Made by a program: the position numbers and the translations under genes. A DNA stretch of 64,000 nucleotides from a virus. Under the pieces are notes generated by a model. The model searched no databases, was not told the origin of the DNA, and saw only the letters and a list, made by a program, of their open reading frames with translations. The stretch is taken from positions 21,610-85,609 of IMG/VR virus record IMGVR_UViG_3300033153_006968; one strand, 5' to 3'. Of the stretch, positions 8,158 through 47,408 are shown in pieces (the first letter of the stretch is position 1; every line of letters begins with the position of its first letter).

Positions 8158-9380
8158 TAACTCGCAATTGTAAACAAGATCGGACTGGTTCCGGCGTATT
8201 GATTCTCGACAATGACTCGTTCATCCTCTTCTGCGCTATAGTCGTTAAGGAGGATTCCTCGAATTTTATTGTCTTCAAGCTTTGTAGGTTTGTAGGTATA
8301 AATGTTTTCAAAAGGTTTAGTGGCGCTTCCAACATTTTTGATTTCGGAAGATGTAGCCATTACACGTTCAATCAGTTCATTCACGATCATATCTTCATCT
8401 ATATCTAGACTGTTAATATAGTCTGTTACATTTGATGTCACAGCATTCAGTATATTAGTTTCTTCTGATGCTGTCATTCTTTTTTTGAGAGTTAGTTTAC
8501 CAACAAGAGAGATTCCTACTTCAATAGGGGCTCTTACACTCGGCACTACACCATGCGCTACAACTTTAAGCACTGCTTCGTTCACTGCGCTAATGAGGCC
8601 AGTCGGAACAGTAGGAGTCACAGCTTTGATTAAGACATCAAAAGTTCCTATACCTCTGAAATATGGAATAATTACTAAATCTGCTACACCTGGAGTGTTT
8701 AGAACGGCTAGTCTAACTGATGTAAGATTGGCCTTTTCGGCACTAGTTACTTGTTTAGATATACGAAAACGATAATTGGTATCTATCTCTCCGTCCTCTC
8801 CTTTGATAACTTCTGAATCGTTAACGACTTTGAGAGAATCATCTGCACTGCCTGTATAGTTAGTGAAGTTATGATATTTTAATTGCCGCGCGCCAACATT
8901 GCTTCTTGTTCCAGGCTGAACTGCCTGTGCAGCAACATACACTTCAGAGAGAGAAGAAGACAAAATAACATTATAGGGAATCCTATATGTTACTCCCGTA
9001 CCAGCAAGAGCTGTGCCTACACTTGTTCCAGAAGATAAAAGTATTGAATTGCCATTATTGACATCTCCAAATGTACCACTATCTACATAGAATCTTATTA
9101 CCCTTTCAGAAGAAGAAACAGAAGCGGTCTCTTGACCAAGCTTCTCTATTCCCATCATGTCGCCAATAAATTCTAGATATTTTCCATCTGCGCCGACAAG
9201 AAGAGCTTGAGCGATATTCACGTCGAACTTCTGATACATCTTGCCGAGCTTACCAGAAAGAGCATTTACTATAGCTCGCGTCTTGCTACCAACAGAGGTT
9301 TTTGTAATGGGAGTATTGTCTATGACTTCAATAAGTAAATCGCCAAATATTTTATCTTTGGACTCTGAGAATAACGGCAT
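8157..9380 (-). CDS. Baseplate J-like wedge protein
   Basis: A 407-residue baseplate wedge component of the gpJ/gp6 family, which forms the inner ring of contractile baseplates. The family signature is visible: an N-terminal helical part with DMMGIEKLGQETAS, a central beta domain (VAAQAVQPGTRSNVGA), and the segment GEDGEIDTNYRFRISKQVTS. Next comes NTPGVADLVIIPYFRGIGTFDVLIKA, in which the substrate-like loop precedes a conserved GIGTxDV strand. Length is typical for the family. It follows the gp25-like gene and shares a start/stop junction with the 532-residue protein. Confidence 0.85.
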   Translation of the reverse strand: MPLFSESKDKIFGDLLIEVIDNTPITKTSVGSKTRAIVNALSGKLGKMYQKFDVNIAQALLVGADGKYLEFIGDMMGIEKLGQETASVSSSERVIRFYVDSGTFGDVNNGNSILLSSGTSVGTALAGTGVTYRIPYNVILSSSLSEVYVAAQAVQPGTRSNVGARQLKYHNFTNYTGSADDSLKVVNDSEVIKGEDGEIDTNYRFRISKQVTSAEKANLTSVRLAVLNTPGVADLVIIPYFRGIGTFDVLIKAVTPTVPTGLISAVNEAVLKVVAHGVVPSVRAPIEVGISLVGKLTLKKRMTASEETNILNAVTSNVTDYINSLDIDEDMIVNELIERVMATSSEIKNVGSATKPFENIYTYKPTKLEDNKIRGILLNDYSAEEDERVIVENQYAGTSPILFTIAS

Positions 9381-10230: not shown

Positions 10231-10650
10231 CTAAAGTAGGCCCGGGGAAAAAATCCTATAGGCACCTACAGCTACTTCATTCAGGTAAGGCGTCTTTCTA
10301 AGAAAGCTGTGATCTTCGTCCCCTATCACTTCAATTATAGCATTTCTTGGACTAAGTTTTCCTCTCCAATATATTCTAACAACTAAACCTTCTCTGAGTG
10401 CACCCCAAAGAAGATAAATCTCAGACAACGGAGTGGCCAGTGGCAAAAACGCATTAGAGATCTCGTTCCCTACCTTTCCGTCTGCCTCTAATTTTTTAAC
10501 CTTTACCTGACCACTGTCATAGTTAACGGCACTTATGATCCCATAGGTAACTCTGTCCTGCTTGTCGGAAGGCTGCTGCGCTTGACGATTTGTTTCGTGC
10601 AAGGCTTGCTGTAGTTCGTTTTTAGGTGCGGAAGAATTATATCCTGGCAT
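10231..10650 (-). CDS. Baseplate spike OB-fold protein (gp5/gpV-like)
   Basis: A 139-residue protein with a small beta-barrel signature, VTYGIISAVNYDSGQVKV followed by VVRIYWRGKLSPRNAIIEVIG. It resembles the OB-fold N-terminal domain of contractile-tail spikes (gpV/gp5/VgrG type). It starts one base into the end of the 1940-residue hub gene, as expected for a hub-spike pair. There is no beta-helix needle in the same chain, so the needle may be the adjacent 112-residue protein or another fibre. The family call is by eye. Confidence 0.55.
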   Translation of the reverse strand: MPGYNSSAPKNELQQALHETNRQAQQPSDKQDRVTYGIISAVNYDSGQVKVKKLEADGKVGNEISNAFLPLATPLSEIYLLWGALREGLVVRIYWRGKLSPRNAIIEVIGDEDHSFLRKTPYLNEVAVGAYRIFSPGLL

Positions 10651-13600
10651 TATTCTGGTGGACTAATTATATCTCCTAATAAATAATTACTAATATCTCC
10701 TTGGGTATGACCGGCCCAACTATTAGGATGAAGTTTATCATAAACGTCATTAAGATACAATGGAGCAGTCCTTTCAGCTTCTTTGATCCATTTGCCAATC
10801 CTCTGAATAAAGCTGCCTCCAGTATGTCTGTTGGGAAGCCCTCCTATCATAGGTTTGTTTCCAAGAACTAACGGAGAGAATCTAAAAGGATGAGCAAGCT
10901 GAGTTCTCGTTATTAACTTTCTGAATATGAATATCCCGAGCATTCCGGTAATAGAGGACGCCCCTTTAACGCCTATAGCATTCTCGGAAGAATTAAAAAA
11001 CATCCTGGCGATTGGGGCAAATGGAGCACTAAGCGGAGCTAACACACCCTGCGTTACTGCTGCGCCAACAGTGTCAATACTTCCCACTCCTACAGAAGCT
11101 TTAACTATAGAACCAAGACTCTGAAGACCTATTGATTTGAGACCCTGTTCTACTATCAATCCCATCGCATCTGCCGTAGCCATTGTAGAATGTTGATTAA
11201 CGTGAACCATAAGATCAGGAGTTATCTCTGTTATAAATCCGTTCTTCTGACTAAATCGATGTATAACTTGCTCTACTTCTATCGGTCCATACATGTCGTT
11301 ATATTCGTCAAAAATATAGACAACATCAAAAGGACGGATTTTAGGATTGCCAACAGAAACAATAGAGCCTGTATACGCTTCCTTTAAAGAGTTGAATAAA
11401 AGAGAAACGCAATAATTTTTTGCCATCTCATAACCTACACAATTAGGATACTGGGCAAATAGCTCTCTAACTTCTTCATCTGGAATAGCCGCATCTGCTT
11501 TCAGAGTGAAGGCCTTAGCATCATCAAAATTTAGTCGTGCTGTATCGTTGTCTACATAAGGAGAATCATCGCTATACTGTAGAGTTACGGTATTAAAAGT
11601 ATTATGTGCCGAAGAAGAAATAGAATTGTGGAGAATATGCATAGAGCTTGTCAGAACATGATATGAACGAAATGGTTTTATAAAGCCCTTATCTAAGGCA
11701 TAAATCTTTGCAATCTTCTTTACCCAAGCTTCCTGTTCTTTCTTGTCATTGGTCGTAACGGCATTCTCTAATTCTTCTGACGGGAGAGAGTCATTACCGA
11801 CCATTCTCTCCTGTGCTCTTTGTTGTTCCTCTCCTTCAACTCCGTCTTTAACAATTTTCCTCATCTGCTCCATTACGTCTTCTTCAGAATGATCTGGATC
11901 TCTAGCGAAATAAAGCTGATCTGGCAATCCAAAAAACATTGTCATCCTAGGGCCATGTTTGCCTTGATAAGGAACTGGGCAAGCGATATAACTTGGATGT
12001 CTAAGAGTCATCTCTTGAAATACGTCCCATACAGTTGTGTGATATAGAGAATAAGTAGGAGTCGTTGAAAAATTGCCAAGAAATCTATCCATTAGACCAA
12101 GAACATTGCTTCCCTGCGGCGCAAAAATATTATCGTCTTGCGGCGAAGGTTGGAATTTCCACCGATTCTTAAGCAGACTGTATCCGGCATTCTTTCCAAA
12201 TTCACCACCTTCCCATCTACCGAAATGTACAACCTCTGGTGAAGCAAGAAGCTGTTCAAGCATTGCAAAGGTTCTGCCATCTCCATCAAACCACCCACCG
12301 AACTCTTTTACTTCCCCATGGATCGACTGAATAAGTTCTATGGCAAAGCTCTGACAAACAATCTCTACCAAATCGGTACTCTCAGAAAATTGCACATCTG
12401 TTATTACGCCATTAAAAACAACGTCTAGCTCATCTGGATTATTGCTGTATCCCAAATTAAGTTGTACCTGTATGCCAGGCTGCAACATAAGAGAAGCGAT
12501 CGGATTTTCTTTAGCTGTGTTCGTTGCAGAGCCTCCTTTTTCTACTGCAATATTTCCCTCTTCGTCAAGATTTTTAGTTGGATCAGCGGCAAAAGAAAAC
12601 TTCCTATTACTAAGAACTCCAGATATATTTGTCATTCTAATTCTGCACAAATCTGCAGCAATCTTTCTACTTCTAATTACTTCTATCTCTTGAATCGCAC
12701 TATATGAAAAGAAATCATCAAAGGCAAATTTCTTTCTTTCGCCCAAATCGCTTTCAATAAAATAAAGCTTGAAGGTAGGATAGGCGCGTTTCATGCCATA
12801 CCCTTGTCCGCTCTTCAATTCTTTTTCGAATTGTTCAATACTCTTCGTAAATAGGCTTTCGTTATTTGGATCAAGGCCAGCTATAGGTCCTTGAGATTTA
12901 GTTGTTTCTCCTTTGAGAATCGGTAAAGGATCTGTATGTTGACCATCTTTTTCCATTTGAAAATGGAGATGAGGTCCTGTTGAATAACCAGTAGTGCCCA
13001 TATGTCCTATTAATTTGCCGACTTCTACCGTAAGAGCCCTATTAACGCCATCGTCAGAAATTCCTAAATCGGCAGAACGATATAAAATACTAGCCCAACC
13101 CTGAGTAATTTCGTCCCACATTAGATGAGAATATTTAGTAATCCATCCGTTAGCATGCTGTATTACTAAAGTCACTCCCTTTGCATCTGCTCTCGCTTGC
13201 TGCGCGATTTCTAAAGTTGGATGAAATATAACTTTGCCATAATCACTTATTTTTATAATCCGTCCAGAGGCAGATGCCAATATCTCACTACCTCTACTGT
13301 CTCTCCAATTATCTGCAGCAAGATCTAGTCCTTTATGAAAGGAAGGCTTCTTTTCGCCCTGTTTTTTTGCAACAGGATCGTCTCTCTTCCCATACCTAGA
13401 TGTAATCCTACGGACAGTAGAACGGGTGGGCCACTTAAAACTAGGATCCTTGCCAGAATCATGATCGGCAGGATTCTCATATTCACTAGGTGGCAAAAAA
13501 GACAATACTTCATTCGTTTCAAATCTATGCTGTACGGCAGCCGCATTAGAAGGAGGAGATACATTACTCTCTATTGAATTTCTATAATTGGTGTTAAGGT

Positions 13601-16472
13601 TGTTGTCTTGATTATCTCCATCGCCGGGCTGGATAGATACAAGCTCAATAGGCTTTTCAGCCTCATAAGAAGCACAGCCTAAAGAGCCAACCAGCTGATT
13701 AGGAGCCATAGCGTTATCTTTGAAAGAGCTATCTTTCTTTGAGATATAATCGTCTACCGCTCCGTTATCTGCTTCGCCATCTTTTTCGTCTGCTTTAGAT
13801 TGTCTTTCTATTAAATCTTTGTTCTCTCTCGAAAACATGCCCGTCAATAAACTAGATTTCTCTAGACCGAGTATATCCTTCTCGTACACATTCTTAAACC
13901 AGTCACCCTCTACTTGCTCTTGTGTCTCTTTTGCTTCAATAATGGCATCCTTTGCATCGTTCATAGCTTCGATAGGAATGAGATTATCTACAACATCATT
14001 TTGCGGCTCAAAGAAATAAAAATCAGGATCAATGAAAGCAGCTATTCCAACGTTCTTTAGAGCTAGTCCAGATTCCTCATACAAGCCATTCAATTTGTTA
14101 TATGCGTTCTTAGACAGATCGTCAGAGCTTGCCTGAAGCGTAGAAAGAACATCCCTAATGGGAAAGTCAGGATAATTATCTGCGCCGGCAGAAAGACCAG
14201 TCTTATTCATTGACTCTCTAACCTCTTTGAACTGGGGAAGATCTCGTAAACTCTTAGTATTTAAAATTTTATCAAGGAATTTCTGCGTAAAAACTGCCCA
14301 TTCCTGAAAGCTATTATTGATAAGAGCATTTAATCTAATGTTGTCTTCAGTTCCAATCCCTTCTACGATATCTTCAACGCTTGTATCTCGAAATTGTCCC
14401 ATCCCTATACTTCCAAGAAGAGCTTGTTCTTCTTGTCCTTGATTATATGCGTCTATAATTTTTTCGCTTTTAACCTGAGTATCTCCAAGGTTATGTTCTG
14501 ATACATAAGATTTTCCATAAAAATCACTTCTAAATGTATTAATATATCCTTGTCCTTTCGCTCTTCTAATAGAGTTGTATATTTCTGTTAAATCTTCGTT
14601 AACTCTCTCTATACTTATTAAATCTTTATTCTTTAAAAGTAAAAGATCTGCCACTATTTCTTTAGCTAAAACTGAATTATTCCAAGGTCCAATTAAATTT
14701 CCTAAATTGAGAACTAATTTTTTAACAAAATTCGCAAGATTTTCCGCATACTCGGAACAAAGTTTTGCAAACCGTGCATTTCTACCGTTGTTTTCAGGAC
14801 CAGAATATTCATAATATTTTAAGGGAGAAAGAGCAACTCCAAATGCTTGCTTCCCAGATTCCTGAATTTCGATCTTTTCATGAGTTGTTTTATAGTTTAG
14901 ACCTAAAAAGAAATGTTCTGTAGCTCCTTGTATTTCATATAGTTTATCTGGATAAAATTTAATATTTTTTTCTATAATCTCTGCAATCTTTGACCTTAAA
15001 TCCTGACCGCTTGTAAAAGATCCACTAGCTTGAAAATTCTCCCTAGTGTACTCTGTCAAAGGATTATCTACGAGAACAAGGGCACCCTGATAACTGCCAG
15101 GTTCTCCCTCTATGTTCTCAACAACGAAACTCTCTGCAAGGAACCCTTCGAGTCCACACATGTTAACTATGTCATTTTCAATCTTGATGTTTCTGTGTCC
15201 GGCGGGAATATTCCTATATTTTAAAGATTGATCTTCCACCGCAGAATAGAAAGAAGAAAGCTTCTCTATAGCGCTTTCCATAGTTGTAGCAAAAGAAATA
15301 ACTACTTCAGCGTCTATACTTCCTATATGTTGAAAAGATGGGAATGGATGTCCCATTAGAGGAAGCATTGCAAGGATATTCTCAAAAGAAATAGATATAC
15401 TTTGTATGACTAATCCTGTGTCGTTGAAGTCTAAACTTACCCCGCGAGAAAGAAGAATGGTATCTTCCTTATCATATTTGTCTTTACCGTCTGGATTCTT
15501 CTGAAGAGAAGGAGAACCTTTGAAAGAAACGGCACTACCATTTATTTGAACAACGGTCCACTCAGTCATATATTCGTATTTAGAACTAGATAGTTGATTA
15601 GTTAAAACGTTCCTAAATTTGCTCAATACTTGAGTCGCAGGCATATCGTCAAGCATAGAGGTCATATCACCGACTAATTCTCTAACGTTTGTCTCTGCCC
15701 ATCTCTTGTCGGCGACTTCTTTAGAGAGCATATCTCGAATGCCTTTTATATCCTGATTCTCTTTCCCTTCAGCGCCAGTCATTAAAGAGGCTAGATTAGA
15801 GCGAATACTCTTAATAATCTCAATTTCTTTTTCTAGTTGTTCGTATTTTCTTATTGTAATAGAACCAAATTGTTTGAAACGAGCGGTCAATCCAGTCTGC
15901 AAACTTCCGACATCTCTGTATCCGAAATCGCTAGTGCGAAACGCCCTTCTCTGCTCCGCATGATAAAGCATTTTCCAAGCCTTAGAATCTGCTGGATTGA
16001 AAACTGGCTTAGGTTCCCATATATGAGATTTGAATGCAAAGTCTCTTGTGAATGGGAAATAATTAAACCAACAAAAATGAAAATTAACAGTAATTACATT
16101 TGTGTCTTGATTGTCTTTAACGATCTCTATCTGTTTAACTGCTATAGCCATATTCTGAATATTGTTACTTCCAAGAATAGACTTTCTAAGGAATTGATTT
16201 TCGATAAAACAGAAAGGAGTTACGCGGATTTGAGAGATAATATTGCGCAACTTAGAAAGCCCATTTGTTAGATCTCCTATTTTATTCCCTGGAGATGGAT
16301 TGTCTGTGAATTCCGCAGTTACATAGATGTCAAGAGTGGAGTAGCCAGACTTAGATTTGACAGATGAACGAGTCCTAAGCGTCTGCCACTTGTGATTAAA
16401 TGAACGTCTATCTATTCTTATATTTTTGGGAGGAATATCAAGAATTATGTCATTGATCTGGAATGAACTCAT
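10650..16472 (-). CDS. Giant baseplate hub with internal M23 peptidase
   Basis: A 1940-residue tail hub. The N-terminal ~500 residues are beta-rich and baseplate-like; residues ~500-1000 are largely helical. Residues ~1030-1190 are an M23 (LytM-type) zinc endopeptidase: HKGLD gives ligands His1046 and Asp1050, and HLHF at 1168-1171 gives the catalytic and ligand histidines. Such domains cut peptidoglycan crosslinks during entry. Residues ~1225-1420 match late-control-gene-D/hub domains (LQPGIQVQLNLGYSNN, FNGVITDV), continuing to ~1750 (VDNDTARLNFDDAK). The C-terminal ~190 residues are low in motifs. It lies between the RNAP-like gene and the OB-fold spike gene. Fusion of hub and lysin in one chain of this size is unusual. 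Confidence 0.85.
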   Translation of the reverse strand: MSSFQINDIILDIPPKNIRIDRRSFNHKWQTLRTRSSVKSKSGYSTLDIYVTAEFTDNPSPGNKIGDLTNGLSKLRNIISQIRVTPFCFIENQFLRKSILGSNNIQNMAIAVKQIEIVKDNQDTNVITVNFHFCWFNYFPFTRDFAFKSHIWEPKPVFNPADSKAWKMLYHAEQRRAFRTSDFGYRDVGSLQTGLTARFKQFGSITIRKYEQLEKEIEIIKSIRSNLASLMTGAEGKENQDIKGIRDMLSKEVADKRWAETNVRELVGDMTSMLDDMPATQVLSKFRNVLTNQLSSSKYEYMTEWTVVQINGSAVSFKGSPSLQKNPDGKDKYDKEDTILLSRGVSLDFNDTGLVIQSISISFENILAMLPLMGHPFPSFQHIGSIDAEVVISFATTMESAIEKLSSFYSAVEDQSLKYRNIPAGHRNIKIENDIVNMCGLEGFLAESFVVENIEGEPGSYQGALVLVDNPLTEYTRENFQASGSFTSGQDLRSKIAEIIEKNIKFYPDKLYEIQGATEHFFLGLNYKTTHEKIEIQESGKQAFGVALSPLKYYEYSGPENNGRNARFAKLCSEYAENLANFVKKLVLNLGNLIGPWNNSVLAKEIVADLLLLKNKDLISIERVNEDLTEIYNSIRRAKGQGYINTFRSDFYGKSYVSEHNLGDTQVKSEKIIDAYNQGQEEQALLGSIGMGQFRDTSVEDIVEGIGTEDNIRLNALINNSFQEWAVFTQKFLDKILNTKSLRDLPQFKEVRESMNKTGLSAGADNYPDFPIRDVLSTLQASSDDLSKNAYNKLNGLYEESGLALKNVGIAAFIDPDFYFFEPQNDVVDNLIPIEAMNDAKDAIIEAKETQEQVEGDWFKNVYEKDILGLEKSSLLTGMFSRENKDLIERQSKADEKDGEADNGAVDDYISKKDSSFKDNAMAPNQLVGSLGCASYEAEKPIELVSIQPGDGDNQDNNLNTNYRNSIESNVSPPSNAAAVQHRFETNEVLSFLPPSEYENPADHDSGKDPSFKWPTRSTVRRITSRYGKRDDPVAKKQGEKKPSFHKGLDLAADNWRDSRGSEILASASGRIIKISDYGKVIFHPTLEIAQQARADAKGVTLVIQHANGWITKYSHLMWDEITQGWASILYRSADLGISDDGVNRALTVEVGKLIGHMGTTGYSTGPHLHFQMEKDGQHTDPLPILKGETTKSQGPIAGLDPNNESLFTKSIEQFEKELKSGQGYGMKRAYPTFKLYFIESDLGERKKFAFDDFFSYSAIQEIEVIRSRKIAADLCRIRMTNISGVLSNRKFSFAADPTKNLDEEGNIAVEKGGSATNTAKENPIASLMLQPGIQVQLNLGYSNNPDELDVVFNGVITDVQFSESTDLVEIVCQSFAIELIQSIHGEVKEFGGWFDGDGRTFAMLEQLLASPEVVHFGRWEGGEFGKNAGYSLLKNRWKFQPSPQDDNIFAPQGSNVLGLMDRFLGNFSTTPTYSLYHTTVWDVFQEMTLRHPSYIACPVPYQGKHGPRMTMFFGLPDQLYFARDPDHSEEDVMEQMRKIVKDGVEGEEQQRAQERMVGNDSLPSEELENAVTTNDKKEQEAWVKKIAKIYALDKGFIKPFRSYHVLTSSMHILHNSISSSAHNTFNTVTLQYSDDSPYVDNDTARLNFDDAKAFTLKADAAIPDEEVRELFAQYPNCVGYEMAKNYCVSLLFNSLKEAYTGSIVSVGNPKIRPFDVVYIFDEYNDMYGPIEVEQVIHRFSQKNGFITEITPDLMVHVNQHSTMATADAMGLIVEQGLKSIGLQSLGSIVKASVGVGSIDTVGAAVTQGVLAPLSAPFAPIARMFFNSSENAIGVKGASSITGMLGIFIFRKLITRTQLAHPFRFSPLVLGNKPMIGGLPNRHTGGSFIQRIGKWIKEAERTAPLYLNDVYDKLHPNSWAGHTQGDISNYLLGDIISPPE

Positions 16473-19400
16473 CTACCTCAAAACTCTATTTGCTATTGTT
16501 GACGGACTTAAGCTATTACTATTATCTCTTACATTTACGTTAATTCTATCAGCTCCTGTAGCAGCTCCTAACCTACTTGTAAAATCTCTACTCATTTGCT
16601 TAGTCGTTACGCGCGCAGAAACATTCGTTGCTTGGCCAGGGTTAACGCGAACTGTAGGAGTATACATTCTTGACGGAGGAGAAGGACTGCCTACTGCTTG
16701 GCCAGGAGGCATTACGTCTTCTGGTTTCATTTGAGAACCAGCCTTATTCACCCTCATCATAGGTCTAGAATCTGGTATCATCACTGAGCCAGGACCTACA
16801 AGGCTGTCTGGCTTACTTAATGCTGCGGCTATAGCAAGAGAACCAGCAAAGCCGAAACCAACAGCTTTCTTATGTTTCAGAACTCCCAATCCCGCCGAAG
16901 CAAGAAAATTCTTCGCAGTCATGGCAGCTTTAGAAACATTAGCTCCCAACCCAGTTGCTACACCTCCTGTATAGGCTAGATATTTTCCGAGTTGCTCAAC
17001 GGTAGGAGCCATTCTGCCCTGCGCCATACGGGCCATTTTGTCCATTCCTGTAGCTTCAGAGATTTCGAGAGCAGATATAATATCCTGTGATGCCTGCCTC
17101 ACATTAGGAGCAGGAAGAACGTTGCTCATTTTTATTCCATAATGTTTTTCAACATCTTTTATTATTGCAGATCCTGGATCTATTGTCACTCCTTCAGTTA
17201 GATATCTCCCCGCAAGAGATCCTTCGTCCATAGCTCCCATAATGGTGCTTTCAAGCCTAGCGGCATTTTTATCCCGTAAACTTGACTGAAGAGTTTTGAA
17301 ATAGTTTTCCATCTGATATTCAAGAACTTCTCTTTGGCCATGGTGTTTACCTGCAATAGCCATCTGTTCTCCGTGCTGAAGTACGAACAAAGCATCTGCC
17401 GTCCTTTGTTTAGATAGTCCCGATTCTACTATCGCCTTTCTTGCCATCGAGATGTCGGTAGATACCAAAGGAGTCCACTTCTGAGCAGTACCTAGTTTCA
17501 TAGCGTCGGCAACCATTCCTTGTCGAGTCGTCAACTCTCCTAAAGCGACCGTTCCAGATCTTGCTTTAATGATCTGAGTCCTAATAGAGTGTTGTACCTG
17601 CGCTTGAGTATATATGTTATCTTGATATAAAAGTTGCTCTCCAATTTTTTCGCCAATCTTAGGCTTCATGAAAGCTGCGGCGATAATATCTGCATCAAAG
17701 TCGGCCAACATACCTGCTGCAGGAGATAGAGTAAGGGCCGCTTCTTTCCCTCCAGATTTGAGAGAGGTGGCAAAAGAAGGTAAAGATATAATCGGTTCAG
17801 TAATTCCTTCTATCGCTCTGATATTTACCCCCTGAATAGATCCAGCGGCCGTAAAAGGGTGTCTCATAAGTATCCCGGGAGACCCAGATCCTAAAAATTG
17901 CTTCTCTATCTTTGTAACTTCAGCCCTAGAATAAACTCCGGTATCTACCAACTCTTCAAGCATTTGCCTTCCATGCCCTATCGGGATCCCGACCTCTGCA
18001 GCGTGTGCCGGAGTAAATCCCTTTACCTTTGTCAACCCGGTAAAAAATCTTGAACCAAGAATCTTTCTCTTCTTGCCGAATAAAGCTCCTGCGCCTTCGC
18101 CATATGGCGCCTGTTGTTTTTGAATTCCTCCTATGAAGTCTCTAATAGCTACATCTGCATCAAGTAAGTCAGCGCTCTTCTCGGCAGATAGTTGTCTTGC
18201 TAGAGTATGATAAATACCAGCTACATCTCCTTTTACAGTATCTCCTGCAGCGGTCATATAAGGCTTTAATATATCTCCGCCGGGAATAAAAACTTCTCTC
18301 TTCCCAGCCTTTAGCCATCCACCTTCTTTACCGCCTGCCTCTAACCAAGCTTGAAATCCTGCTGAGTCATATCCTTTAACTCCAATATCCCACATACGAG
18401 CACCCTTCCCAGGAGAAGCCATGCCTTCAACAGATTGTAACGTTTTGGTCAGGGCATCATATGTAGCGGTAGCTCTTGGGTCCGTCATGGCAGCTCTCCG
18501 AGCAAAGTCCTCTGCAATCTCTTCTCCAAGTGCTCCATGTTGTCCCGCGCGCAAAAGATCAAATGCTCTAGATTCTATAGATCCTAACTTTCCAGCACCA
18601 GTTCTTTCCATTGTCTCGCCAAACATAGACTGAGATATACCCAGAGATAATCCCTCAGTTCCAAGCAAAGCGTCAAATTGATGCACTGAAATACCTGCTT
18701 CTTTCATAGCAAATCGCTTCACGCCTTTGATAAAACCTTCACCTTCACCATATTTTCCAGCTATATAAGAGGCAAACACATTTGGATTTCGCATAAACGA
18801 AGCGAGTTTACCGTTGCGACGAATGGCATCTTCCGTTCTCGTCCCTTCGATCATATCCCAAAGACCAGTGATAATCTGGTTGTTTCTGTTGGCCATCTTT
18901 AATTTATTAGCAGAAGCTATCTGCAAAGGTTCTCCAGTCGCCATAGCGTCCAAAAATGGCCGACGTTGCTCCGGAGACATTCCTGCAGTTAAATCCCATA
19001 CCGACTGTCTAACATCTGCCGGATCTGCAAATTTCATCATCGCTTTGAGACCACCAAAAGCACCAAAGATCTTTTGAGCTATACCAGGTCTATGAGTCTG
19101 TAAATAATAAAGAGATTTTAAATCTCCCTTACCGACAGTAGAAAACCCTTCAACTCCCAACAACTTCATATTGCTTTCATAAGCAACGCCTTTGCCTTCC
19201 GGCGTCCAACCAAGCATCTCACCTGGTGTAAAAGTTGCGCCTTTAGCGATACGCTCTTCTACGCCTTCAACAAATGTCTTAAAATGTACTGGATCAGGCA
19301 TTCTAAATGCTTCAAGCATTCTTCTTGTCTGAGGAGTTCCTGTAATAATACTTTCGCCTTCTCCCAGCCCTAGCTTCTGAAGTTGGGTGGCGTATTTTTC

Positions 19401-20744
19401 TGGATCTACATAGAGAGTTCTTATATGTGGTGCAGCATAGGCTCCAAAATCTTTACGCCAACCTTGTGTTTCAAATATGGACCATTTAGATCCCTGATTC
19501 ATAAACTCTTCAACGGCAGCAGGAGTCATTCTCCATTCTCTAGCTGCTTGCATGGGCCTATTACCAAAAGAGGCGACTTCTGGAGTTGGAGACCAAGCTC
19601 TTGGATCAAGAGTGGATAGCCTCCATTTGGATAGATTCTTAGGACTCGTAGAAGGATATAGTCCACCTTGTTCCATAATACGAGCCCCTTCTCGACTCGT
19701 AGGTTCTCTAAATATATCTCCTTCAAGAATACGAACGTCTACAGCTTGTCCGCGAATATTTAATTCACTCTTTCTAGCAGCGTTTTTTATACTAGATGGA
19801 AGATTAGGGACATGCGGCATAGCAAATATATCTCTCTCATATACTGATTTCAATACTTTTTGAATATCAAAGGCGGATTTATATTCGCCCGCAGCAAGAC
19901 TTGGTAATATCGTCTGTTCTATATCTTTAAGATAATACTGAGTCCTCGTCATCTTCTCTAACAGATTGCCACGAGGATCAAAAATATGTGCTCCAACAGC
20001 TACCCTCTTCGAAGACTGGGTAAGGCCTTCTACTAATGCTCCTTTCTGAGACATCGGAATAGTCACGTCAAATTTATGTTTCCCATATCTGAAAGGCATC
20101 TTGTATGTCCCAAAACCTTCTTGTTGCCAACCTTTACGAGTATAATATTTGACCTCTCCAGCAGCAGTAACGCCTGTATCTTTAGTAAACTCTTTATGAA
20201 ATGCCTGTAATTCAGCAGGTAATTCATTGATGGCTTTATTCATTGCGCGCGGAAAAGAAAGATTTTCTACTCTCTCAACTGTAGGCATCTTGCCGATTAC
20301 CTCCATATGTTTACCAAGTAGTCCTACATTCTTTTTAAACTTTCGATAAGCAGACGCCATAAATAGAGAGTTATTACGCTGAAGTGTTTGCTTTATAGAT
20401 GTGTAGACTTTGTTGGCAGGCATAGTTTTTATATCGCCGGCGAATGAAAGAACTTCCCCTGCTAATGGATCTGTAGATTGTATAGCTTCTATCCATGCCC
20501 TTCTAGCTATCTCTGCACCTTCTTTAGTCCTGAAAACACCAGCCATCTCATTCATTAAGCTCATATCTATAGCCGAAACAGCTTCTCTTGGCGCGGCAGA
20601 TACAGCTTTATTCAGGAATGAAGAGCCCATACTTGGAGGAACAAAAGCACCAGCCTTAGCTGCTTGATGAATAGCGAAACCAGAACCAGCAACAAAAGGA
20701 GATGCTACTAATAAATCTTTCAAAAAGTTCCTATCGTCAGGCAC
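16473..20744 (-). CDS. Candidate virion RNA polymerase (beta-prime-like double-psi barrel, DFDAD)
   Basis: A 1423-residue protein starting at GTG 20744 (AAGG six bases upstream) and overlapping the 1251-residue gene. Residues ~890-1025 reproduce the order of blocks in the RNAP beta-prime catalytic barrel. GSRFF near 897 may stand for the GRSV region; AAEVGIPIGHGRQMLEEL (915-932) for CGLPKKMALEL; ILMRHPFTAAGSIQ (958-971) for LLNRAPTLHRLGIQ; LSPAAGMLADFDADII (1006-1021) for the LHP...NADFDGD block. D1015, D1017 and D1019 would bind the catalytic magnesium. A membrane-like helix lies near 1285-1305. Single-chain relatives known from the literature are YonO and the virion polymerases of crAss-like phages and Thermus phage P23-45. 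Position in the tape-measure slot suggests packaging and ejection. Polymerase activity is inferred; tape-measure function is the alternative or an additional role. Confidence 0.7.
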   Translation of the reverse strand: MPDDRNFLKDLLVASPFVAGSGFAIHQAAKAGAFVPPSMGSSFLNKAVSAAPREAVSAIDMSLMNEMAGVFRTKEGAEIARRAWIEAIQSTDPLAGEVLSFAGDIKTMPANKVYTSIKQTLQRNNSLFMASAYRKFKKNVGLLGKHMEVIGKMPTVERVENLSFPRAMNKAINELPAELQAFHKEFTKDTGVTAAGEVKYYTRKGWQQEGFGTYKMPFRYGKHKFDVTIPMSQKGALVEGLTQSSKRVAVGAHIFDPRGNLLEKMTRTQYYLKDIEQTILPSLAAGEYKSAFDIQKVLKSVYERDIFAMPHVPNLPSSIKNAARKSELNIRGQAVDVRILEGDIFREPTSREGARIMEQGGLYPSTSPKNLSKWRLSTLDPRAWSPTPEVASFGNRPMQAAREWRMTPAAVEEFMNQGSKWSIFETQGWRKDFGAYAAPHIRTLYVDPEKYATQLQKLGLGEGESIITGTPQTRRMLEAFRMPDPVHFKTFVEGVEERIAKGATFTPGEMLGWTPEGKGVAYESNMKLLGVEGFSTVGKGDLKSLYYLQTHRPGIAQKIFGAFGGLKAMMKFADPADVRQSVWDLTAGMSPEQRRPFLDAMATGEPLQIASANKLKMANRNNQIITGLWDMIEGTRTEDAIRRNGKLASFMRNPNVFASYIAGKYGEGEGFIKGVKRFAMKEAGISVHQFDALLGTEGLSLGISQSMFGETMERTGAGKLGSIESRAFDLLRAGQHGALGEEIAEDFARRAAMTDPRATATYDALTKTLQSVEGMASPGKGARMWDIGVKGYDSAGFQAWLEAGGKEGGWLKAGKREVFIPGGDILKPYMTAAGDTVKGDVAGIYHTLARQLSAEKSADLLDADVAIRDFIGGIQKQQAPYGEGAGALFGKKRKILGSRFFTGLTKVKGFTPAHAAEVGIPIGHGRQMLEELVDTGVYSRAEVTKIEKQFLGSGSPGILMRHPFTAAGSIQGVNIRAIEGITEPIISLPSFATSLKSGGKEAALTLSPAAGMLADFDADIIAAAFMKPKIGEKIGEQLLYQDNIYTQAQVQHSIRTQIIKARSGTVALGELTTRQGMVADAMKLGTAQKWTPLVSTDISMARKAIVESGLSKQRTADALFVLQHGEQMAIAGKHHGQREVLEYQMENYFKTLQSSLRDKNAARLESTIMGAMDEGSLAGRYLTEGVTIDPGSAIIKDVEKHYGIKMSNVLPAPNVRQASQDIISALEISEATGMDKMARMAQGRMAPTVEQLGKYLAYTGGVATGLGANVSKAAMTAKNFLASAGLGVLKHKKAVGFGFAGSLAIAAALSKPDSLVGPGSVMIPDSRPMMRVNKAGSQMKPEDVMPPGQAVGSPSPPSRMYTPTVRVNPGQATNVSARVTTKQMSRDFTSRLGAATGADRINVNVRDNSNSLSPSTIANRVLR

Positions 20745-23700
20745 TTAACACCTTCCTTATGGCTTCAACAGCCTCATCGGTCTTATCTTCTTCAACTTCT
20801 ATATCTACGGACGTTCCACTTCCAGATCGAGAAGTAATGAACGAACTACTATTCTCCATCTTATCAACAAAAAACAATTCGTTAAGTCTACCCTGTACAT
20901 CTTCTCTAGAGAGCTTTTCAGACTCAAGCAGAGGTTGGATAGCCTCTTCGTCTATAAACTCTTTGTAGGGCAATTCTGCGCCTCTGGAGGGCCATAAATT
21001 AAGCTCGATAGGATCTCCTCCAATCTCCTGGACAAGTTTGAGTTTAACATCTTCTAAATCAACTGAAGGATGAAAGCCCGCCCAATCCGCCCCGGGAATA
21101 GAAGGAACCTGAGAAAGTAACTTGGTTCTTCTATACCAATCAGGGTAACTCTCTCCTTTAAGCTTTGTAGCTACATATTCTGCAAATAGATCTTTGCTTG
21201 TAGGGAGTCCTTCTGTTCGAGCCTCGTCGTAAACTTGATCTATCTCTTCTTCTGCTTCTGCCTCTTGCTCTTCTGTGAGTACTCCTTCTTTGATTGCGGT
21301 TTTGAGATCTTGAGCATGAACCATCTTCCACCGCGCAAGATAAAGAGACTTTTCATTCTCTGGCACCATCTCTAAGATGCGCGCCCTCTCTTCATATGAC
21401 TCGGCACCTTCAAATGCTTGAAAGTAATCTCTTTCTCTTCTCGGGAGTGAGCGATAAATAGATGTATAATTTCTAGTATAAGGACTAACTCCGAATAACG
21501 TTTCGTTCTTCTTTGCTTCGAATTCTTTGACCGCAGCAGTATCATCAGCCATCTGTGCCATATTAGATAACCTTGCATATTTGGTATACTTGAGAATATC
21601 AAAATATTCCTCTATATTTCTGAGATGTTCGGAATGTTCAGGAACGCCTTCGGCACCAAGGGCTCGTCCCATTAATCTTCCGAATGGTTTAGCAAAGTGT
21701 TCAAGAGGGTGTGTCCAGAAAGCACTTGGAGTTCCGTAGAGAACATCCCTCTCATATGCTTCGATAGCAGTTCTAGTATGAACTAGTTTGCCGCCAGGAG
21801 ATACAGGAGTCAACTGATCAAAAGCAGTCTCTGCGTTGTGAGCAAGTAGCTCCCAATAGCCACCAAATAATCTATCGGATAAAGAAGTCTCCTTTGCTCC
21901 AGAAGCTTTCCATTCATTCATCGCAATCATCAAGTCAGAACTTTCCTGCCGCGCGGGAGAAAAAATATCGCCCATTGGTGACAGATGTTTATATTCTTGA
22001 AATTCTATTCTCTGTTTTTTGGATTTAACCTGCTCAAGAGTAGTCTGATATATATCTTCCTCTTGTTCGGACCAATCTCCCCTTGTTCTCTTCCCTCTTA
22101 TCTTAGAATAAGTTCTCTTATATTTGTCTGTATATGGAGCCACATCGGCTAATATTTTATATTGATGAATAAGGGGATAGTCCGCAGGGTCTACGCCTTC
22201 TAGCTCTGGATGGAGAGCAGCATATCCAACACCAGGAAGACGTATTTCTCCCATTTGTACTTTGGTAAATGGATCGCCATATTGAATATTAGGTCCTCTT
22301 TCTCCAGGCCCTGGCAACCATTCAGGCATTAAATTTCTAATAGGATTCTGAAGTTCAATCTGTCTTCTTCTATGAGGATACAAACGCCTCCAGGCTTCAC
22401 TTAGTCCTGCAAGGCCGCCTAACTCCCTATCCCAATATTCTCTTTCGTAACTAGCTATCCTGCTTGCGCTTTCCAATTGAGACATCTGGTCAAACCAATC
22501 CTGACTACCTGTGAGTTTTTCCTTTATTGCCGAAGAAATAAAACCAGTCAAACCAGGTAATTCAGTTCCTAGTCTATATATCTGCTCACCAGCCATTTCG
22601 GCTAATCCTGGAGCAATAGGAACTCCACCAGGCTCTTGTCCTATCTCTGTAGCTACCCTTCCTCCAAACCCAGGAGCAGGAAGTTTGACTCCTCTATCAG
22701 AGAAAAACTCATCAATGTGCATATATAATTGTGGCTTAATCCATCTGCCTACAGTCTGAGATAATAAAGGTCCAATAAACGGTACATCTTCAAAAGGTAA
22801 ACCAGTAGTCGGATAGGGTCTATCCTCATAATGTTCTCTTTCTAGTTCGTAAGTAAATTGACTCTTCCACCATTTAGATACTGGACTTAATTCTTCATCT
22901 TCTCCCCAGATAGATTTTTCTTTCCCGCGCAACCTAAGCATTGCATAAGTATGTGGACGATAATATCGAATACGGGTACCCTCGTACGGCTGACGGCCAA
23001 GTTCCCACCAACGACTTTTACGTATTGGAACTTCCTGTTCTCCTGAGTAGATACGTCTCAATTCTTCTGGAGATTGTTCCGGAATTAACGCACCAGGAAT
23101 AAAGGGGGCGATGAGAGCCAAGCCAGCAAGAGCACCTGCTCCAATTAGCGCTTTGCTAGGAGTCATTCTGCTCAGTAATTTATTGGTTCCAGCATTCTCA
23201 AAGAATTTCCCCATCTTGGCCCAAGACTCAAACTGCCCATCCAATCTTTGTCGCGCCAAGGAAGAAGATATTCCTTCAGATATTTGAAGGGCGGCCATCT
23301 TCCAAGTCTTATATCCGTAGATTCCAACGCCAATACCCATAGCTCCCATAGCTGGGAAGGCTGCAAGTTTCAGTAAGTCAGTGCTGCCTGGAGCCACTTC
23401 TTTTTGTTTCCGTACAAATTCTTGAAGTCCGGTCACTTCAGCAATCTCTGCCGCTTTGACATGCGCCGCTACAGGAATGGTTGCCAATCCATAGGTAAGG
23501 CCATGTTCGAACAGGGTTCCCTCAGTTGCTTCGCTGGTACGCGCTGCCCAATCAAGAGTTCCATACCCAAGAGCAAGAGCGCCTAATCCAAGTCCATACT
23601 TTCCAGATAGCCTAGCTAACATCTCAAGACCACCCGCCTCTTTAACTGCAAGATACTTGCCAACAGAGGGCATAAAACGACCAATACCGGGTATCTTACT

Positions 23701-24492
23701 AGGAGAGTCGGCAGTCATTCTGAGTAATCTATTAAACCTCTGTATTTGCTCAGTCCCAAGAGCGCCTAACTTTCTACCCCAGTGTTCTGTTAGAGTTTTT
23801 CCGCCTATTATCTGGGCAGCATATCCTTCACCAAGCTGAGGGTTAACTATAATTTGTTTGCCCCACTTGAATTCAGGAGAAGCAAAGAAACGATCAAAAG
23901 GAATGGATCCTTTTAATCCAAGTCTACGCGCATAAGCTCCGCCGATATGGGATCTTTCTCCAACTCCAGGAGACGTAATAGCTGAAGCATATTTAAGGGC
24001 TACATCCCCGCCGCCCCAATAAAGGCTACCTCCTTTGAGAGATACTCCTTCCTGAAGCAATCTCTGGTATGTAAAGGAACCAGGCTTCTCACCTATAATA
24101 CGGGCAAGATATTCGGCGTATTGCTTATTCTTACCTAATAATTCTGGACCAACAACTAATTCGGCTTTTCTTACAGCTGTTTCAAATGGGCTAAATATAT
24201 GACTTAATTGGAATGTTCTAAACGCTTTAACGGGAGAGTATTCTTCAAGTGCTCTCAAGCCAGCGACATAGTAATCCCATACATGCTTGCCCTTTCTTCC
24301 GGCAGGCATATACCCTAACGCCCCAATTGCTCCAAGAGTGGCAGCAAAACCAGCTACGCCACCAACTTGTGATCCGATTGGTCGGGTTAATTTTTGGGGT
24401 TCAGTTGTCCAGTAATCAGGTTGGCTGGTTGGATCTGTTAAAGATGGGCCGTAATAAGACCGTGCAGAATTGAATACAAATTGATTAGCCAC
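20737..24492 (-). CDS. Putative tape-measure / ejected virion protein with membrane segments
   Basis: A 1251-residue protein in the usual tape-measure position, after the chaperone pair. Hydrophobic Gly/Ala-rich segments lie near residues 41-62, ~300-345, ~375-400 and ~450-475, suitable for crossing a host membrane. A distinctive motif follows at ~474-520 (EELRRIYSGEQEVPIRK, RWWELGRQPYEGTRI). The C-terminal half is charged and helical, with an acidic stretch (EEQEAEAEEEIDQVYDE). It starts at GTG 24492 with only a weak ribosome site, so it may be translationally coupled to the upstream gene, two bases away. It overlaps the RNAP-like gene by 8 bases. No enzyme motif is seen. Function (tape measure, or cargo ejected with the polymerase) is inferred from place. 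Confidence 0.5.
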   Translation of the reverse strand: MANQFVFNSARSYYGPSLTDPTSQPDYWTTEPQKLTRPIGSQVGGVAGFAATLGAIGALGYMPAGRKGKHVWDYYVAGLRALEEYSPVKAFRTFQLSHIFSPFETAVRKAELVVGPELLGKNKQYAEYLARIIGEKPGSFTYQRLLQEGVSLKGGSLYWGGGDVALKYASAITSPGVGERSHIGGAYARRLGLKGSIPFDRFFASPEFKWGKQIIVNPQLGEGYAAQIIGGKTLTEHWGRKLGALGTEQIQRFNRLLRMTADSPSKIPGIGRFMPSVGKYLAVKEAGGLEMLARLSGKYGLGLGALALGYGTLDWAARTSEATEGTLFEHGLTYGLATIPVAAHVKAAEIAEVTGLQEFVRKQKEVAPGSTDLLKLAAFPAMGAMGIGVGIYGYKTWKMAALQISEGISSSLARQRLDGQFESWAKMGKFFENAGTNKLLSRMTPSKALIGAGALAGLALIAPFIPGALIPEQSPEELRRIYSGEQEVPIRKSRWWELGRQPYEGTRIRYYRPHTYAMLRLRGKEKSIWGEDEELSPVSKWWKSQFTYELEREHYEDRPYPTTGLPFEDVPFIGPLLSQTVGRWIKPQLYMHIDEFFSDRGVKLPAPGFGGRVATEIGQEPGGVPIAPGLAEMAGEQIYRLGTELPGLTGFISSAIKEKLTGSQDWFDQMSQLESASRIASYEREYWDRELGGLAGLSEAWRRLYPHRRRQIELQNPIRNLMPEWLPGPGERGPNIQYGDPFTKVQMGEIRLPGVGYAALHPELEGVDPADYPLIHQYKILADVAPYTDKYKRTYSKIRGKRTRGDWSEQEEDIYQTTLEQVKSKKQRIEFQEYKHLSPMGDIFSPARQESSDLMIAMNEWKASGAKETSLSDRLFGGYWELLAHNAETAFDQLTPVSPGGKLVHTRTAIEAYERDVLYGTPSAFWTHPLEHFAKPFGRLMGRALGAEGVPEHSEHLRNIEEYFDILKYTKYARLSNMAQMADDTAAVKEFEAKKNETLFGVSPYTRNYTSIYRSLPRRERDYFQAFEGAESYEERARILEMVPENEKSLYLARWKMVHAQDLKTAIKEGVLTEEQEAEAEEEIDQVYDEARTEGLPTSKDLFAEYVATKLKGESYPDWYRRTKLLSQVPSIPGADWAGFHPSVDLEDVKLKLVQEIGGDPIELNLWPSRGAELPYKEFIDEEAIQPLLESEKLSREDVQGRLNELFFVDKMENSSSFITSRSGSGTSVDIEVEEDKTDEAVEAIRKVLSA

Positions 24493-28535: not shown

Positions 28536-30449
28536 TTATACCGCAGCCAGTCCGACTGTAACGACGATTTCTCTCAACTCGAATGCGGGAACAAGCTTAA
28601 GCTGAACAAACGCCTGACCTAGAACACGTTGAGCTGGAGTAGCGGTAACTCTCACCTCATATCTCTGCAAGTCTTGATTCGTAACACGTTGTTTGCATTT
28701 GTTGTCACAAGCAGTTTCAAGAGCTGCAAGTTTAATGCCTGTGATGCCTTCTCCTAAGAAAGGTTCGCCTACTTCGCGAATGTCGTCAATAACTGCCTTT
28801 ACAATGCGAACAGTAGAGAGTCTACGATAGTCGCTGTCCGGACGTGCGGCAGTAGGAGCGTCACTTACAACGATACCTTTAATTTTCTTATGGAAGGTAA
28901 CATAACGAAGACCGGCAAGAAGATCAAGCTTCGCAGTACCAATACGGAACGGAAGAGAAATACTCTTGAGAATCTTGTTAGTAGGAGCACTCGACGGAGG
29001 TAGACCTGAATAAAATCCACCGTAAGTAGCAGCGCCAGTTGCCATATAAGAAGTAGCGCGACTTTGGTTAGCAAGAATCGGATAGGTAGCAACTACATTA
29101 ATATACTTACCAATATCGATAAGATGGTCATTATCGTCAGTTTGCTGGGTTCCATCCATAAATCCGTCGTCAGTTGCGGCAAATCCGCCGGCATAAAGAC
29201 CATCTACACCATTTATAATATGGCCAGCAAGACCACCTGAGCTAACTCGACCAGCCATGAACTTGTTACCAAGCAGACCAGTTCCGTTAGTTGTAATAAT
29301 AGTATTACCGTTTGCGTCTGTACTAGTAACTGGAACAGTGCCAATCCAAGCTTTTACTTGAGCAGGAGAACGACCATCTGCAGGTTTAACTCCAATGGCG
29401 CTAGTCATCTCGGCACTCTGTTCGCTCTGGCGATAGCAGAAGTCAGCAAGCTGATAAGCAAAGTTAACTTCATGGAAATCGTCAGCGTCTAAAGCTGTCC
29501 CGTCAGTCTTAGTTGTCGAAGAAGCAGAGCCAGCACTCGGAGAAATATTTGCCGCAGCGAAAGTAGGATTGGTAGGATCGTTCGGGAACCACCACCAGAA
29601 ATATTGAGTTCCTAGATACTCTTCGGTATAGAACTTGCCAAGGACATCGTCGTCAGCACCAGCGCTTGCAGGATAGTCAGAGAGGGCAGTAAGGCCGCGA
29701 TCGTTAATCTGGCCAGTAGTTAAGTCCATGACATTCAGATCATCAAGATATATATTCATAGGAAGAACTACATCAAGATCTTCGTCTGACATAAAGTCAT
29801 ATGCTCGCCAAAGACCTTCGTAAATCTTCGTTCGACATAGAGCACCAGCTCCAGTAGAGCTATTTGGTACACCGTCAGTACCTGCTGTATATACGGCAGG
29901 ACCATCGCCGTCTGCGTCGGCCGCAGCGAGAGTGATAGGAGTTGAAGAAGTTCCTATATCTGAAACTGAACCAGTAGTGCTACCGCTTACAGCTACTTCG
30001 CCATCGTCGATAGCGCTCAGCGGATAAGCAGGATTGTTGTCGTAAATTACTTCGTCATCACTTGCTCTATAGACTCGAAGTCGTCCAGTGGAAGCTTCGA
30101 AAAAGATTAAATAATCAGTACCAGCAGTTGTATCCTTAGAGATAGTTTCTACTGTAAATCCAGTACCATCGCCGACACCAGAAAGAGTTGCAGAAGTAGC
30201 TCCAATACGGAAAAGTTTCAGATTAAGCGCACCGCCGATAATAGCTTCATACATACCTCTGATAAGAGTTCCTGTAGAGCCAAAAGCAGCTGCAGCGTCT
30301 GATGCTTTATCTACGCTGTATAACGTCTCTGAGTCACCACTTGCAGCTGTTCCAACAACACAAACTACAGGATTATCATTCCGCTGTACGATAGTTAAAA
30401 GACCATCAATTTTATTAGTTCTGACTTCTGCAAGATTTTCAAAAGACAT
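28536..30449 (-). CDS. Contractile tail sheath protein
   Basis: A 637-residue sheath monomer. The N-terminus (KIDGLLTIVQRNDNPVVCVVGTA, read as two short strands, and DAAAAFGSTGTLIRGMYEAI) is typical of the sheath family. The C-terminal domain shows the conserved handshake region: YRRLSTVRIVKAVIDDIREV, then LGEGITGIKLAALETACD, and a final strand set RYEVRVTATPAQRVLGQ. The central part is Gly/Ser/Thr-rich and probably the surface domain. It is followed by the tube gene 14 bases later. This gene defines the particle as contractile (myovirus morphology). Confidence 0.9.
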   Translation of the reverse strand: MSFENLAEVRTNKIDGLLTIVQRNDNPVVCVVGTAASGDSETLYSVDKASDAAAAFGSTGTLIRGMYEAIIGGALNLKLFRIGATSATLSGVGDGTGFTVETISKDTTAGTDYLIFFEASTGRLRVYRASDDEVIYDNNPAYPLSAIDDGEVAVSGSTTGSVSDIGTSSTPITLAAADADGDGPAVYTAGTDGVPNSSTGAGALCRTKIYEGLWRAYDFMSDEDLDVVLPMNIYLDDLNVMDLTTGQINDRGLTALSDYPASAGADDDVLGKFYTEEYLGTQYFWWWFPNDPTNPTFAAANISPSAGSASSTTKTDGTALDADDFHEVNFAYQLADFCYRQSEQSAEMTSAIGVKPADGRSPAQVKAWIGTVPVTSTDANGNTIITTNGTGLLGNKFMAGRVSSGGLAGHIINGVDGLYAGGFAATDDGFMDGTQQTDDNDHLIDIGKYINVVATYPILANQSRATSYMATGAATYGGFYSGLPPSSAPTNKILKSISLPFRIGTAKLDLLAGLRYVTFHKKIKGIVVSDAPTAARPDSDYRRLSTVRIVKAVIDDIREVGEPFLGEGITGIKLAALETACDNKCKQRVTNQDLQRYEVRVTATPAQRVLGQAFVQLKLVPAFELREIVVTVGLAAV

Positions 30450-46166: not shown

Positions 46167-47408
46167 TTACAGACCAGGAATAGTATCAGTAGCACCGAGC
46201 GGACCCATCGAGCCAGAAACACCGGCGTCGATAGTGGTCTGAGCGGGAAGTACAATCTCATTCGGAGTAACTTTGATATTCTTGATAACGCCAACAGCTT
46301 GACCTTCGTTCAGGATGCCAAGACCATAGCGTTCCTTCAGTTTAATCTTAGTAATGTCATTGCGGGGATCTTTAAACTCGTCAGTAGAAATATCTTCATC
46401 TACAATTAGAACGCCTAGTTCGTTGCGATCAAAGATATAAATATCAGTAAGCTTTCTACGTGCATCAAACGGAACAAACGGACTAACAAGAATAGTCAGA
46501 GGATAAGGGAAGTACGAAGGAACTTCTGGAGCACTATCGATAGTTTGGGGATAATCAAGAAGATCAGTAGCGGTTAGACTTGCAGCATTTGATCCAGGAG
46601 CAATGTTCTGACCCACGCCAGGTCCGAGACCACCTTGTGAGCTATTGCCCCAAGGAGCCTGGCCAGCAGGGTTACCACGATGAGTAGCAAAGAATGTTCC
46701 GCCGCCACTTGCAAGAGCAAACGAACGAAGAACAGGATCTTTAATCCAAATTACCCATGCAAGAGGATGCATTAAGATAGTATTGGGAACAAAGCCTTGA
46801 TGAAGAATATGGGCATACGCATCAAAAACATCGTCCATGATAACAGAACCGTTGGCATTGCCATTGAGTCCACGACCATGGGTGATACCGAGTAACGAAT
46901 TAGTAGGAGTAACGTTATCAAAGATCTTGACGCCGAGTTGGCCAATAAGGTTGAAAATCTTCTCTTCCTTATGTCGAGCAAGTGCACGACCAGCCATTCG
47001 GAGCATCATTCCAATGATATCGTACTGAGAAAATTTAATCATTTCTTCAGTGATTTTCAGGGCAAGACCGGATTTACCGATGCTAGCCGTCACCGAAGAA
47101 CCACCCCATGAAGGATAAGCTTCTGGGAATTCCATCCCTTCTGCGATATCCGAAGCGGTCAGAGCACCAGTAGCTCCGATAGTGATAGTCTGGCCATAGT
47201 GATAGTTAATGCGATTAAGCAAACTTGTTCCAATGAGCAGAGGTTCAGCAGCTTCCTTTACTATATTTTGAATAACCTTGGGAAGGAACACAGGTGCATT
47301 CATAGTAGAAATAGCATCTGTAATAGACATGCGCTCACCATCAGGAAGCGAGCCGTTGTTCCGCCACATCCATTCGTATTTTTTTACGTCCTCAACTTTG
47401 AATTCCAT
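46167..47408 (-). CDS. Major capsid protein (HK97 fold)
   Basis: A 413-residue protein right after the protease/scaffold and one further structural gene, followed by a strong terminator, the usual setting of a major capsid gene. The N-terminus (YEWMWRNNGSLPDGERMSIT, DAISTMNAPVFLPKVIQNIV) and the E-loop-like stretch ALTASDIAEGMEFPEAYPSW are typical. So are the spine-helix region EKIFNLIGQLGVKIFD and the P-domain strands FVPNTILMHPLAWVIWIKDP and LTILVSPFVPFD of HK97-type capsids of large myophages. No accessory insertion domain is obvious. Confidence 0.85.
   Translation of the reverse strand: MEFKVEDVKKYEWMWRNNGSLPDGERMSITDAISTMNAPVFLPKVIQNIVKEAAEPLLIGTSLLNRINYHYGQTITIGATGALTASDIAEGMEFPEAYPSWGGSSVTASIGKSGLALKITEEMIKFSQYDIIGMMLRMAGRALARHKEEKIFNLIGQLGVKIFDNVTPTNSLLGITHGRGLNGNANGSVIMDDVFDAYAHILHQGFVPNTILMHPLAWVIWIKDPVLRSFALASGGGTFFATHRGNPAGQAPWGNSSQGGLGPGVGQNIAPGSNAASLTATDLLDYPQTIDSAPEVPSYFPYPLTILVSPFVPFDARRKLTDIYIFDRNELGVLIVDEDISTDEFKDPRNDITKIKLKERYGLGILNEGQAVGVIKNIKVTPNEIVLPAQTTIDAGVSGSMGPLGATDTIPGL

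Follow-up and report, generated by a model that had tools for sequence, protein, structure and literature searches.

A predicted single-chain RNA polymerase encoded between the probable tape measure and the baseplate hub of a contractile-tailed phage

The window analysed here is a stretch of 64,000 nucleotides (positions 21,610 to 85,609 of IMG/VR record IMGVR_UViG_3300033153_006968, an 85.6-kb virus record), and an open reading frame (ORF) on its minus strand, at 16473..20744, almost certainly encodes a single-chain RNA polymerase (RNAP) that is a distant relative of the cellular enzyme. The gene starts with GTG, a ribosome-binding site (AGGAAGG) was read from the sequence, and its start overlaps the upstream stop codon by 8 nucleotides; at its other end it directly adjoins the start of the baseplate hub gene. 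In jumbo myoviruses of the 0305phi8-36 type this RNAP gene is flanked by the probable tape measure and the baseplate hub, a position to which we refer as the slot. On the basis of its motifs, conservation within its family, and structure prediction with fold search, we annotate the 1,423-amino-acid product as a single-chain, two-barrel RNAP with a C-terminal tail module.

A first-pass annotation of this DNA had proposed a virion RNAP from three motifs, and all three are present in the ORF where it had placed them, as are the DFDAD codons: residues 915-932 are AAEVGIPIGHGRQMLEEL, residues 958-971 are ILMRHPFTAAGSIQ and residues 1006-1021 are LSPAAGMLADFDADII. DFDAD (17688..17702, minus strand, as for all window coordinates below) provides the metal-binding triad D1015, D1017 and D1019, and is the single occurrence of the pattern D[FYW]D[AG]D across the six frames of the window. 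R961-H962-P963 (17856..17864) is the counterpart of the beta-prime RxP motif. The lysines K558 and K567 (19044..19073; K-x(5-8)-K) resemble the lysine pair of the beta-subunit barrel and are candidate catalytic lysines of a second barrel. As the triad and the lysine pair lie in one open frame, the core is not split over several polypeptides. The segment E1126-Q-x-x-I-x-x-K-H1134 (17343..17369) is a candidate trigger-loop motif, with a spacing that we take to be like that of the beta-prime trigger loop.

Relatives were found via the conserved upstream gene, which yielded 145 viral loci, and slot genes were picked by position alone, as the next large ORF past the homologue of that upstream gene. 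The similarity cluster of the window comprised 30 loci, with DxDxD in 29 of the 29 members whose ORF reaches the region; in L124, the sole member without it, the ORF ends before the region. When a non-redundant subset of this cluster was searched for [RK]xP-x(25-110)-DxDxD, the pattern was found in 28/28 slot genes, compared with 1/28 upstream genes and 3/25 downstream hub genes of the same loci, and with 49 of 1400 shuffled slot sequences (3.5%). The slot triad was also present in many additional clusters that were not joined by blastp.

Full-length alignment of 34 relatives, which range from 13 to 39% in identity, contained just 14 columns conserved at 90% or more, and six of these are K567, R961, P963, D1015, D1017 and D1019. 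Each of the three aspartates is D in 34/34 relatives, P963 is P in 34/34, and position 961 is R in 32 and K in 2, so that the conservation anticipated by the first-pass annotation was observed for the aspartates, and for R961 as R or K. The wider set of 56 proteins gave 55-56/56 for the triad aspartates, the single deviation being a triad mispicked in L138, and R in 48 and K in 2 (50/56) at position 961. This wider set was chosen for the triad and its triad count is therefore not independent, whereas the 28/28 count in the cluster is. Divergence in the 8-row core alignment was too high for a pattern search; core alignment A6 had five invariant columns, three of them the triad aspartates, and in the 8-row alignment A3 both K558 and K567 were invariant. 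Among the 34 relatives K567 is K in 31, with the second lysine 6-9 residues upstream in most rows, judged by eye. The conserved EQxxIxxKH segment at 1126-1134 (I/L1130 in 34/34, K/R1133 in 32/34, H/K1134 in 34/34) may, from its sequence, be the trigger loop. The region AAEVGIPIGHGRQMLEEL was correctly reported, but H924 and G925 of its GHGR vary among homologues across the 56-protein set, and we dropped these two positions as a family signature.

Some of the collected loci deserve separate description. L162 is the circular 240-kb Cytobacillus oceanisediminis plasmid pN497-ZHONG (NZ_CP065512), which encodes tail chaperonins as well as a slot RNAP sharing 64% identity with the one in L133; the record is probably a phage-plasmid. 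Slot proteins in a 59-member cluster (part of L021-L086) are about 600-2,070 amino acids long and lack DxDxD at the RNAP position, and two members scanned against Pfam had no match. A 2,700-amino-acid slot protein at L148:13897-21999 has no DxDxD and matches RNase_T and SIS domains weakly.

A first structure model built from 8 sequences was poor (predicted local distance difference test score, pLDDT, 57), yet its fold matches were already RNAPs. AlphaFold2 modelling of amino acids 440-1290 (16875..19427) with 34 relatives gave a mean pLDDT of 84.2 and a predicted template modelling score (pTM) of 0.84. Foldseek searches of the PDB with two models returned RNAP complexes, chiefly beta-prime chains, as 50/50 of the matches listed for each, and the AR9 non-virion RNAP (chain 7s01_d) was among the matches listed. 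In the model the triad loop has strands on either side, as in a beta-prime-like barrel, the fold matches being reported without residue ranges; the barrel expected around the triad by the first-pass annotation is supported by fold matches that are all to RNAP. A 35-residue helix at 1073-1107 of the model could be the bridge helix. Among viral models, the best four matches were an unnamed entry, a siphovirus minor tail protein, a Microcystis phage MaMV-DC protein and a protein of Acinetobacter phage ME3, followed by annotated viral RNAP subunits; proteins of crAss-like phages gave weak fold matches in this list. In MaMV-DC, the source of one of these matches, L160:225-5258 and L160:17653-28335 are large ORFs (about 1,680 and 3,560 amino acids) with RNAP-like DxDGD contexts, GDADGDQ and LGDFDGD.

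The genes around the slot are those of a tail. The upstream gene (20737..24492) encodes a large tail protein of 1,251 amino acids with two hydrophobic segments, homologous to ME3_35 (25.8% identity over 1,217 columns, E=4e-84) and the likelier tape measure. The hub (10650..16472; 1,940 amino acids) contains a peptidase M23 domain (PF01551, E=5e-15) and is homologous to the hubs of ME3, Bacillus phage KLEB27-3 and Moorella phage MTATph1. We also recognised a contractile tail sheath of 637 amino acids (28536..30449; phrog_16991, E=4.5e-74), a baseplate wedge subunit (8157..9380; phrog_6, E=5e-26) and the major head protein (46167..47408; phrog_3922, E=1e-20), indicating that the tail is contractile. 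The hub and upstream genes match those of KLEB27-3, MTATph1 and ME3, which have in common the order sheath, tube, upstream large protein, slot gene, hub. The sheath match and this synteny bear out the earlier placement of the gene within the tail gene set of a myovirus.

Several of these tail genes are named in the ME3 record as homologues of Bacillus phage 0305phi8-36. In 0305phi8-36, gp147 is the hub and gp146 was designated the tape measure, chiefly on account of its length (PMC2147016); by position, the slot is therefore the equivalent of gp146. Two isolates have triad-bearing counterparts in the slot, KLEB27-3 gp034, annotated as 'structural protein', and ME3_36, so that the annotations of the pair go no further than structural or hypothetical protein. 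At L005:598-6850, beside the tail cluster, lie glycosyltransferase-like genes and a gene whose product looks, by eye, like an actin-like (MreB/ParM-type) protein.

The C-terminal tail module (amino acids 1264-1423; 16476..16955) consists of a hydrophobic segment, a proline-rich linker and a small conserved domain. By profile, the last 80 residues of the window's group matched those of the 0305phi8-36 (gp146) group at 92%, the KLEB27-3 group at 81% and MTATph1 CDS0031 at 70%, and the 0305phi8-36 group shares these 80 residues despite having no triad. This group consists of L140, which is probably 0305phi8-36 itself, L146 and L148. At L088:13803-14384 and in L089 the slot protein is only 193 amino acids long and matches just the C-terminal 160 residues of the RNAP family; the upstream and hub proteins of these loci are close to those of the window, the upstream protein being full length (1,292 amino acids), and the RNAP profile had no match in the two fragments (67 and 94.5 kb). 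The RNAP core is therefore separable from the small tail module. Since the slot protein shrinks to 193 amino acids while the upstream gene stays full length, the upstream protein is the better tape-measure candidate; from its sequence the slot protein of L088/L089 could hardly be one, and the suggestion in the first-pass annotation that the window protein itself might serve as tape measure is disfavoured.

The slot gene of MTATph1 (L003:22513-36558) has an RNase_T exonuclease domain; a transposase gene separates it from CDS0031, where the C-terminal module is found. We tentatively propose that the gene flanked by tape measure and hub may, in long-tailed jumbo myoviruses, be a delivery slot, in which a conserved C-terminal tail module is fused to varying cargo, and that the polymerase would be an exchangeable tail cargo and not part of the tape measure. 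If so, and we offer this only as a possibility, the cargo would be RNAP in most relatives of the window and an exonuclease domain, with a separate copy of the module, in MTATph1, and in L088/L089 the module would stand alone.

Taken together, we judge it likely that this gene encodes a single-chain RNAP of the two-barrel superfamily, fused to a tail module of about 160 amino acids, assembled into the tail and delivered together with the DNA at infection. RNAP homology, conservation of the catalytic residues, gene position, and the modularity of core and tail module are strongly supported. The RNAP assignment of the first-pass annotation agrees with the RNAP-only fold matches and with the conserved aspartates and R961, and the virion RNAP reading is supported by the late tail operon position, the tail module and catalytic conservation.

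Several results weigh against this interpretation. Searches of Pfam and of PDB sequences with the window protein itself were negative: no Pfam match was significant, and the only hit, PF21624 (N4 plug domain, E=0.15), was discounted as chance-level; PDB sequences gave nothing of weight, either for the protein or for a profile of the 34 relatives. PHROGs gave no match, tblastn on phages and a pattern search of viral contigs gave nothing usable, and a scan of genome contigs found zero relatives. Template modelling scores to solved RNAPs are low (0.12-0.18), because just part of each chain aligns, the better local alignments covering about 240-340 columns. Since no beta-subunit chain could be recognised among the PDB matches listed, the evidence for the second barrel comes from the lysine pair and the strands of the model. 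In the 56-protein set, about five distant members have A or S at position 961. Some relatives of the same tail lineage (the 59-member cluster, the 0305phi8-36 group and L088/L089) have no triad, and the enzyme is thus not universal in the lineage. The profile search that the first-pass annotation had suggested fails for the window protein; for distant relatives its outcome favours the interpretation, since KLEB27-3 gp034 (E=0.015) and L149 (E=0.0043) match Pfam RNA_pol_Rpb1_2 exactly at the triad, weakly and below the curated cut-off. Profile comparison linked the group of these two proteins to that of the window at 99.3% (E=5e-20) over most of the length of the window protein.

Four other explanations were considered. 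The protein may be a genuine RNAP made late and used inside the infected cell, encoded in the tail operon without being packaged. Other phage two-barrel RNAPs, YonO and P23-45 gp64, are non-virion enzymes (PMC5467207, PMC10770324), and yet we consider this unlikely, given that in many diverged loci the gene is closely flanked by the likely tape measure and the hub, that the C-terminal module also exists without polymerase at the same position, and that separate YonO/QDE-like genes occur elsewhere in some of the same genomes. It is improbable that the protein is a two-barrel nucleotidyl transferase that enters along with the genome and has a different function, for instance priming or RNA-templated synthesis: the superfamily takes in the RNA-interference polymerase QDE-1 and archaeal PolD (PMC10770324), but the fold matches are DNA-dependent RNAP complexes and the one member known to travel in a tail transcribes pre-early genes (PMC10770324). 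A tail or tape-measure protein with an RNAP-derived fold that has lost catalysis would accord with the 0305phi8-36 member of the slot, gp146, which was assigned as tape measure by length (PMC2147016) and has no DxDxD. We regard this as very improbable, because the catalytic residues are the best-conserved positions of a family whose members are about 13-39% identical, because retention of three aspartates in every member is not what one would expect of a structural relic, and because the slot protein is reduced to 193 amino acids in L088/L089. A coincidental motif in an unrelated tape measure, which the lack of a significant family match for the window protein might suggest, is contradicted by the conservation statistics, the predicted structure and the relationship, seen by profile comparison, with proteins that match RNA_pol_Rpb1_2 at the triad, and can be dismissed.

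A virion RNAP of this kind would have one barrel carrying the K558/K567 pair and another carrying R961 and the DxDxD metal triad. By analogy with phage P23-45, the protein would be expressed late, be built into the tail between tape measure and hub, and leave it through the hub at infection, and the hydrophobic segment of its C-terminal module may hold it at the cell envelope. The polymerase could then transcribe the earliest phage genes on the incoming DNA, ahead of the host polymerase or independently of it; from the same analogy we infer catalytic activity, packaging, ejection, early promoters and early transcription.

Some related genomes appear to encode a further RNAP. PF05183 (the YonO/QDE-1 group) was found in 4/15 records, two of the four below the family cut-off: three were slot-triad genomes in which the match lies outside the slot, with E=1.8e-34, 1.3e-4 and 1.6e-4 (only the first passing the cut-off), and the fourth was the L140 record, with a PF05183 gene elsewhere and no slot triad. 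The record of relative L011 had no PF05183 match. A YonO-like second RNAP as a general partner is thus unsupported. KLEB27-3 (L152, L154) has two annotated sigma factors, gp089 and gp210, and no annotated RNAP core within stretches 10000-205000 of its 216,671 bases, which would fit a virion RNAP followed by a redirected host polymerase.

Two-barrel single-chain RNAPs, one of them fused to a tape measure, are already known; the features that set this one apart are a distinct sequence family, a separate gene, its occurrence in contractile-tailed phages and a detachable tail module. The association of tape measure and RNAP in P23-45 was described in 2024 as previously unsuspected (PMC10770324), and a survey of 224 jumbo phages that discusses ME3 names two-barrel RNAPs just for group 1 and two group 3 phages (PMC7824862). 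In the main texts of papers and preprints in PMC that were searched, we found no description of this RNAP family; some members may be included in Supplementary Data 4 of PMC10770324. If our interpretation is true, a polymerase carried through a contractile tail would allow phage transcription to start without the host enzyme, in an arrangement comparable to that of P23-45 and in a different sequence family, spread over dozens of jumbo-phage contigs and the isolates KLEB27-3 and ME3. Lineages with and without the RNAP core offer natural controls for the role of a tail-borne polymerase.

Among known systems, the N4 virion RNAP is likewise a large RNAP carried in the virion, as proposed for the window protein, but has a T7-like palm fold and is unrelated. 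The virion and non-virion RNAPs of phiKZ and AR9 share the beta-prime-like catalytic core; these multisubunit enzymes comprise several polypeptides, whereas the window RNAP is one chain. The virion RNAP gp66 of crAss-like phage phi14:2 is a single-chain two-barrel enzyme (6VR4, cited in PMC10770324) from a different phage group, and in crAss-like phages, too, the virion RNAPs are fused to large proteins whose function is unknown. The group of YonO, 0305phi8-36 gp99 and QDE-1 (PF05183) resembles the window protein in its single chain, its DxDxD and, by inference, both barrels, but the Pfam scan of the window protein gave no PF05183 match. The closest known system is the tape-measure-fused virion RNAP gp96 of P23-45, in which the RNAP is the N-terminus of a 5,002-amino-acid tape measure (PMC10770324). 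As predicted for the window protein, gp96 is a single-chain two-barrel RNAP with a DxDxD triad, and each is encoded by a gene of the tail module and has hardly any detectable sequence similarity to known RNAPs; as in P23-45, the slot enzyme is accompanied in some genomes by a second, separate RNAP. Unlike gp96, the window RNAP is a separate gene of 1,423 codons upstream of the hub, not fused to the tape measure, and belongs to a different sequence family, found in contractile-tailed phages and bearing a small C-terminal tail module.

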